From a virus: DNA of 37,000 nt. A program made the translations under genes and the position numbers. Position 1 is the first letter of the stretch; each line of letters begins with the position of its first letter. The stretch covers positions 1-37,000 of the IMG/VR virus record IMGVR_UViG_3300048929_000124; one strand, written 5' to 3'. The notes beneath the pieces were generated by a model. That model did no database searches. It was not told the origin of the DNA and saw nothing but the letters and a program-made list of their open reading frames with translations. Below, piece by piece: positions 1 to 3,240 of the stretch.

Positions 1-118
1 GCACGGATTAAAGATCGCTGGTGTTGATTTGAATAGAAAAGTATTAGCTGACATGGCTGTTAATGACGCAGCAGGCTTTGCAAAGTTAGCAGAACTTGCA
101 AAATCTAAAGTAGCTTAA
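1..118 (+). CDS. rplT: 50S ribosomal protein L20 (bL20), 3' end only
   Basis: Reading from base 2, the last 38 codons end at TAA 116-118 and contain the string [16 protein letters not shown], which is the conserved C-terminal part of bL20 (globular domain that binds 23S rRNA). The rest of the gene lies to the left of the window. It is the only clearly non-phage gene here and marks the chromosomal flank of the prophage. bL20 normally closes the infC-rpmI-rplT operon, which fits the terminator directly after it. Identification is from recognised sequence, not alignment. Confidence 0.93.
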
Positions 119-1321: not shown

Positions 1322-1380
1322 AGTTATTATTTCCTTTCATGTACTGTGTTAACTTATTTTTGGGTATAAAAATAACGCCC

Positions 1381-1409
1381 TTGTCAGGACGTTCCAAAAA
1401 TGATATAAT
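1381..1409 (+). promoter_or_regulatory. Near-consensus sigma-A promoter for a small RNA
   Basis: TTGTCA at 1381-1386 and TATAAT at 1404-1409 are separated by exactly 17 bases. This gives a near-perfect sigma-A promoter pointing rightward, while both flanking genes point left. The predicted start is about 1415-1417. No rightward ORF with a ribosome binding site follows before the terminator at 1472. Confidence 0.78.
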
Positions 1410-1415
1410 CCTTGT

Positions 1416-1504
1416 GATGAGTAGGTTATATCTTTTCGGTTCATCCGACGAGAGAAAATCTATATGTAAAGCCGTTCGGTGTTGGTAGCACCGGGCGGTT
1501 TTTT
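1416..1504 (+). ncRNA. Candidate structured small RNA (~90 nt) between integrase and lipoprotein genes
   Basis: The unit has its own promoter and a strong terminator but no plausible coding frame. Inside it, TATA (1428-1431) and TTTTC can pair with GAAAA and TATA (around 1454-1464), enclosing a small CGG-TTCAT-CCG hairpin at about 1437-1447. The 3' end is the terminator hairpin. It is transcribed opposite to the integrase and lipoprotein genes, and its end touches the lipoprotein stop codon. I do not recognise an RNA family. It could be a regulatory RNA, an antisense RNA to the convergent transcript, or a type I antitoxin-like RNA. The boundaries are inferred from promoter and terminator. Confidence 0.6.
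1472..1504 (+). terminator. Strong intrinsic terminator of the small RNA
   Basis: A 10-bp stem (CCGTTCGGTG at 1472-1481 with CACCGGGCGG at 1489-1498, two G-T pairs) encloses a 7-nt loop and is followed by six T at 1499-1504. It is oriented for the plus strand. Confidence 0.85.
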
Positions 1505-3033: not shown

Positions 3034-3240
3034 TTGATAAATACCGGCAAAGTAAAAGGCCGACTTGCAGAATTAGGGTTGACCCAAAAAGATGTTGCTG
3101 TGGCTTTAGATATCGCCCAGCCCACAGCAAACCAAAAGATTAACAACATTCGACCTATGGATTTAAATGAGGCAGAAAAATTAGCTGGCTTATTACATTT
3201 GGCCCCAAAGGATTTCCAATTATATTTTTTTGCAAATTAG
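3034..3240 (+). CDS. Cro-like helix-turn-helix regulator
   Basis: A 68-residue XRE-type protein made almost entirely of one HTH domain (LTQKDVAVALDIAQPTANQK, then LNEAEKLAGLLHL). A TTG at 3034 is chosen as start: AGAGGTGAT ends a few bases before it, while the upstream GTG at 3025 lies inside that ribosome binding site. It is the first gene of the rightward operon, divergent from the repressor, and ends 35 bases before the antirepressor. By position it should be the Cro-type factor that shuts off repressor synthesis. Confidence 0.85.
   Translation: MINTGKVKGRLAELGLTQKDVAVALDIAQPTANQKINNIRPMDLNEAEKLAGLLHLAPKDFQLYFFAN

Follow-up and report, generated by a model that had tools for sequence, protein, structure and literature searches.

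What might a small RNA encoded between a phage integrase gene and a lipoprotein gene control? The locus lies within a window of 37,000 nucleotides (positions 1 to 37,000 of IMG/VR virus record IMGVR_UViG_3300048929_000124), and an earlier note on this sequence had proposed that the RNA, at positions 1381–1504, could regulate the integrase, regulate the lipoprotein or act in trans. Analysis of the locus showed that the element of interest exceeds this interval and includes the integrase leader, 1319–1504 on the minus strand. The RNA is very probably a cis-encoded antisense RNA that turns integrase off by attenuation, as judged from the sequence features listed in Table 1 and their recurrence in related phages.

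Table 1. Features of the integrase leader and its surroundings in the window.
Feature	Position	Strand	Remarks
Tyrosine integrase gene (target)	254–1321	−	Pfam PF00589, E 1.3e-16; PHROG 1 integrase
Integrase ribosome site GAAAGGA	1331–1337	−	Downstream of leader terminator; read from sequence
Leader intrinsic terminator	1366–1393	−	AACGUCCU GACA AGGGCGUU, then AUUUUUAU; −11.4 kcal/mol
R2, second antiterminator arm	1383–1411	−	Complement of antisense promoter
R1, first antiterminator arm	1424–1449	−	Within region complementary to antisense RNA (sRNA body)
Antisense RNA promoter TTGTCA-17-TATAAT	1381–1409	+	−35 TTGTCA 1381–1386; −10 TATAAT 1404–1409; 17-nt spacer; TG 1401–1402 (extended −10)
Antisense small RNA, ~89 nt	1416–1504	+	Putative start site 6–7 nt past −10
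Intrinsic terminator of antisense RNA	1468–1504	+	Stem-loop 1468–1502, then T; loop TTGGTAG, U-turn type (YUNR)
Lipoprotein gene	1505–about 2005	−	Stop codon 1505–1507 abuts leader
Cro/C1-type repressor gene	2078–2869	−	Pfam HTH_3; first in presumed lysogeny operon

The RNA is opposed to both of its neighbours, as had been claimed. It had also been placed on the lysogenic strand, but repressor, lipoprotein and integrase are all encoded on the minus strand, and the RNA is therefore antisense to the lysogeny operon. The lipoprotein gene was assigned by its signal peptide; it matched no Pfam or PHROG family, and a search of viral contigs returned no relatives. Opposite the repressor, an AntA-type antirepressor gene (PF08346; 3275–4057, plus strand) directly follows a small Cro-like gene. 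Positions 2–118 (plus strand), which from their sequence we take to be the end of the ribosomal protein L20 gene with its terminator, stand before integrase in the window, and the prophage probably sits beside rplT.

The promoter described previously was present, and it scores 11 of 12 consensus bases. Of the 10 promoter-like matches in a 4-kb region it ranked first; shuffled sequences gave an expectation of 10.7, so the number of matches is at chance level and the case for the promoter rests on conservation. The internal pairing reported for the RNA was also confirmed, with the predicted transcript of ~91 nt folding at −36.9 kcal/mol (z = −5.7 relative to shuffles). Two descriptions needed adjustment. 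The terminator and the T's after its stem were found, but the stem, given as 10 bp, reaches as many as 16 pairs once A-U and G-U are counted. The length of about 90 nt likewise stood, and the description of the RNA as free of any ORF was nearly right: a 23-codon frame opens with an ATG (1417) that coincides with or adjoins the start site, lacks a ribosome site and is lost from most relatives. In Rfam 15, no family reached its gathering score in the window, and a permissive search returned only chance-level matches.

The element was then written as the integrase mRNA leader, that is, as the minus strand of the window. In this direction it comprises a hairpin complementary to the sRNA terminator, followed by R1, R2 and then R3, which comes with either a U-tract or the ribosome site; R2 can pair with R1 or with R3. 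The end of R2 (1386–1393) doubles as the first arm of the leader terminator, AACGUCCUGACAAGGGCGUU followed by U5, which is located just ahead of the integrase ribosome site. The R1–R2 hairpin of the window (−24.6 kcal/mol) contains CGUCC, which is also part of the first terminator arm (AACGUCCUGACAAGGGCGUUAUUUUUAU, −11.4 kcal/mol); only one of the two structures can therefore form. When the antisense-covered part was removed, the terminator became the predicted fold. The terminators of relatives are not the same but are complete, such as AACAGCUUGCAAUAGCUGUU in L036, which has a serine integrase behind it. Leaders of the Faecalibacterium type use the ribosome site itself as R3: in phage Roos CUCUUUUGGGUA pairs with UACCCAAAGGAG, and in the L019 leader CCACCUCC pairs with GGAGGUGG.

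The earlier note named lack of stem conservation in related elements as one result that would refute the RNA. Conservation was examined, and the refuting result did not arise. A first blastn search of phage records located the terminator segment, placed between integrase and the gene beside it, in several Ruminococcus gnavus and Faecalibacterium phages and in a Monoglobus record in which tuf adjoins integrase. Viral contigs and genomes were scanned with the terminator core CRGTGTTGGTAGCACYGGG, giving 95 and 104 stretches, respectively, and 180 distinct sites in total. At 82 of the 180, a tyrosine integrase starts right behind the site on the opposite strand, and at approximately 19 further sites a serine recombinase does so (Pfam Resolvase/Recombinase). 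Requiring a promoter and a T-run retained 98 distinct loci, corresponding to 59 non-redundant elements. The element lies immediately upstream of the integrase (79 tyrosine, 19 serine), on the opposite strand, and the loci are almost all in Clostridia and their phages, mostly from gut bacteria. Spacing of the promoter boxes is 17 or 18 nearly always. The −10 box takes the extended form TGNTAYAAT, TG preceding it in most of the 59 non-redundant elements. The predicted antisense RNA differs in length among relatives. Many share the TTGGTAG loop and some have other loops. Near-identical elements precede unrelated recombinases, as in L016 (serine) and L073 (tyrosine).

Since this set had been collected through the terminator motif, an independent sample was obtained using integrases as queries, without the sRNA motif. 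The antisense −10 box occurred at a similar place in 17 of 17 complete leaders. About half of these leaders have a different sRNA terminator hairpin (with loops such as TTGGCG), indicating that the TTGGTAG loop, though common, is not obligatory. Script-based re-analysis covered 12 sequences (11 of these leaders plus the window) and returned the full element for 10; for L214 and L231 the script chose a promoter elsewhere, and the element is visible by eye.

Pairing energies were compared between cognate and non-cognate arms across the 59 non-redundant elements. For R1–R2, cognate arms averaged −18.5 kcal/mol and non-cognate arms −10.5 kcal/mol, with −12.7 as the lowest value in 10,000 permutations. 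For R2–R3, the corresponding values were −17.6 and −12.8 kcal/mol, with a permutation best of −14.3. Both pairings are thus locus-specific. The permutations retain the promoter-derived sequence common to all R2 arms, and so the excess of pairing is not due to the −10 box. Blocking R1 in silico raised the median number of R2–R3 pairs from 3.5 to 18.1. Replacement of R1 by a shuffled or foreign R1 doubled the R2–R3 pairs and reduced ribosome-site access from 0.34 to 0.19 (p about 1e-7 to 1e-8).

Mismatches in the arms were examined to distinguish RNA from DNA constraint. On the leader strand, R2–R3 mismatches were G-U rather than A-C at a ratio of 54:26, compared with 179:178 in non-cognate controls, and the bias toward G-U was seen in 27 loci against 8. 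This indicates that the hairpin is maintained as sense-strand RNA. R1–R2 mismatches showed no G-U enrichment (33:54, controls 128:199), and R1–R2 taken alone therefore does not tell the two kinds of constraint apart. Covariation was also assessed. No pair of the terminator stem changed on both sides among the 12 nearest relatives. For the antiterminator, 7 pairs carried double changes and the covariation score exceeded that of all 500 shuffles; sliding the partner by one column gave about the same score, and this alignment-based test is only supportive. The promoter, the terminator, the mutually exclusive pairings, their locus-specific conservation and their position at integrases were all computed from sequence.

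How the leader itself would be transcribed was considered next. Because the lipoprotein stop codon abuts the leader, read-through is the probable source. In 87 of 92 loci the gene ahead of the leader is oriented like integrase, its stop codon lying a median of 18 nt away, which fits read-through. Candidates for a dedicated sense promoter immediately ahead of the leader were weak and inconsistent (30 of 97 loci when scored permissively), and for this reason read-through is preferred. Most simply, integrase would close the repressor operon and depend on read-through for its expression.

We infer that both RNAs are made, in which direction the effect runs and when in the phage life cycle it operates. 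Integrase would be the final gene of a minus-strand lysogeny operon of repressor, lipoprotein and integrase. As the leader emerges, R1 would pair with R2, the terminator would be blocked and integrase would be expressed; this ON state is expected early in infection, when antisense RNA is scarce. Once transcribed from its strong promoter on the opposite strand, antisense RNA would pair with the leader and sequester R1. The freed R2 would pair with the segment that follows it, and transcription would stop just ahead of the integrase ribosome site, an OFF state expected once lysogeny is established. For many relatives, the second hairpin is predicted to hide the ribosome site instead, such that translation rather than transcription is blocked. 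By this means the antisense RNA may uncouple integrase from repressor, both being made at first and integrase going off once antisense RNA accumulates. In approximately one-quarter of the non-redundant leaders, the full-leader thermodynamic fold prefers R2–R3 even without antisense RNA, and for these the model needs co-transcriptional folding. Excision after induction also requires integrase, which counts against the attenuation model, as release of the block is not explained by the sequence.

Of the roles put forward earlier, regulation of integrase is strongly supported by the conserved antisense position at leaders and by the mutually exclusive, locus-specific folds. Regulation of the lipoprotein found no support: integrase is constant among relatives whereas the gene on that side varies (zinc-finger, metallopeptidase, HTH and other genes), and a role tied to the lipoprotein was rejected.

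Other explanations for the element were weighed against attenuation. Integrase could be blocked by plain transcription interference, or by RNase III cutting of a double strand, with the leader folds being incidental. Convergent transcription is indeed built into the locus, and the two transcripts would overlap completely. Such a block, however, predicts no conserved, locus-specific and exclusive R1–R2 and R2–R3 pairings, and these were found; we consider it unlikely. The inverted repeat over the antisense promoter might instead be a DNA operator for a repressor, or an integrase arm site, given that the arms form an inverted repeat taking in the −10 box and that R1–R2 lacks G-U enrichment. Against a DNA site stands the behaviour of the arms, which vary in sequence, length and spacing from locus to locus yet remain complementary, and one of which competes with the terminator or ribosome-site hairpin. 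Moreover, a single element serves tyrosine and serine recombinases, whose DNA sites are unrelated. Recognition as DNA is accordingly a very improbable explanation.

A trans-acting prophage small RNA, with host or other phage mRNAs as its chief targets, is marginally less probable still. Unpaired stretches of the antisense RNA are AU-rich, and the shared UUGGUAG loop could start pairing with other RNAs, but the body of the RNA diverges in sequence from locus to locus, and conservation extends only to its complementarity with the locus of origin. Least credible of all, and considered extremely improbable, is a type I toxin–antitoxin system, in which the RNA would be the antitoxin to a small minus-strand toxin. 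The RNA is short and lies opposite small frames, among them one of 31 codons (1349–1444, minus strand); the encoded peptide, however, is non-hydrophobic and not membrane-like, leader length and sequence vary among relatives, and the constant neighbour is integrase. No small, hydrophobic, conserved frame was found opposite the RNA, and this candidate was rejected.

The hairpin that carries the loop is not confined to integrase leaders. The same hairpin (CCCGGTGCTACCAACACCG on the gene strand) was also observed in other bacteria, where it lies 40–50 nt ahead of different phage genes (L023, L025, L048, L098, L107, L133, L155, L167 and others), with Proteobacteria and Actinobacteria among the hosts. 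The genes behind it encode HNH endonucleases and Rha, ORF6N and Bro-N regulators. Some of these hairpins directly follow TATAAT and would form the 5′ end of the mRNA. A second hairpin with a TTGGTAG loop and a different stem occurs inside longer sRNAs (L021, L091, L096, L105, L108 and L138). Repetition of the loop points to a function of the loop itself, perhaps as a U-turn for loop–loop contact.

Action in trans, the remaining suggestion of the earlier note, would hold only between prophages with near-identical elements and not otherwise. IMG genome 2545555826 contains at least four prophage contigs with the element (L020, L047, L056/L215 and L216), and within two pairs of them the sRNA bodies are almost identical. 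In this one polylysogen, integrases are therefore predicted to be silenced in trans across prophages.

Integrase is needed as a pulse on infection and must be kept off in the lysogen. A mechanism for this pulse or shut-off in phages of gut Clostridia was not found in the open-access literature searched. Antisense attenuation would provide a concrete, RNA-only mechanism for integrase control, testable in described phages such as those of Ruminococcus gnavus and Faecalibacterium, and the approximately 100 natural elements, in transcriptional and translational forms, constitute a resource of antisense RNA switches. A broader proposal is made tentatively, as a possibility that falls a little short of an even chance: that these elements form a large, unnamed class of antisense attenuators that is the standard integrase switch in many temperate phages of Clostridia, the module moving between serine and tyrosine integrases and swapping transcriptional for translational output, with matching co-resident prophages silencing each other's integrase in trans.

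No description of antisense control or attenuation of phage integrase leaders was found in the open-access papers searched. Control of a phage integrase at the RNA level, dependent on the origin of the transcript, is familiar from lambda sib, which is situated downstream of int and acts via RNase III processing; here, by contrast, an antisense RNA in the leader would be responsible. The int-alpA RNA motif (Rfam RF02996) takes its name from its proximity to phage integrase genes; its gathering score was not reached in the window or in the scanned group A loci. An Rfam scan of the loci returned only a tRNA and one int-alpA match, the latter at 3158–3224 of L107, among apparent prophage structural genes with no integrase seen near. 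ArrA of Bacillus subtilis is an antisense RNA over the dnaA 5′ untranslated region that lowers expression (PMC12112137). The element resembles it in covering a 5′ untranslated region and in lowering, as predicted, expression of the gene; the ArrA target is a host gene, and the abstract on ArrA names no antiterminator/terminator switch. A microbiome RNA survey lists candidate structures near integrases (PMC8040213), such as HMP2_7457 of Firmicutes, and these might include elements of the type in the window.

The closest likeness is to plasmid copy control. Like the antisense attenuators of the pT181/pIP501 type, the window sequence has an RNA that is encoded opposite a leader and has a promoter and terminator to itself, antiterminator and terminator structures that exclude each other, and an antiterminator arm within the antisense-covered part; antisense binding is predicted to cause premature termination, as it does in that type. 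Descent from the pT181/pIP501 copy-control family is not claimed, the target here being a PF00589 integrase or a serine recombinase and not a plasmid replication initiator. In pIP501, RNAIII is a 136-nt antisense RNA that causes premature termination in the repR leader, with convergent promoters (PMC4981023). The attenuation logic is shared; pIP501 differs in having a partner protein, CopR, and in serving plasmid replication, with no integrase. In the pT181 repC attenuator of Staphylococcus aureus, antisense binding to the leader permits the terminator to form, and this terminator also holds the ribosome site (PMC5435934). The target of pT181 control is a plasmid replication initiator, and copy number is set, whereas the target here is the integrase that ends a lysogeny operon; the two are likened in their logic, and no sequence relation is claimed. 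The antisense promoter also lies, unlike that of pT181, inside the second antiterminator arm. Both systems share an antisense RNA from the opposite strand, a sequestered antiterminator arm and a terminator upstream of the gene, and the pT181 terminator with its ribosome site matches the two flavours, transcriptional and translational, seen here. The element would thus extend a plasmid copy-number mechanism to the control of lysogeny.
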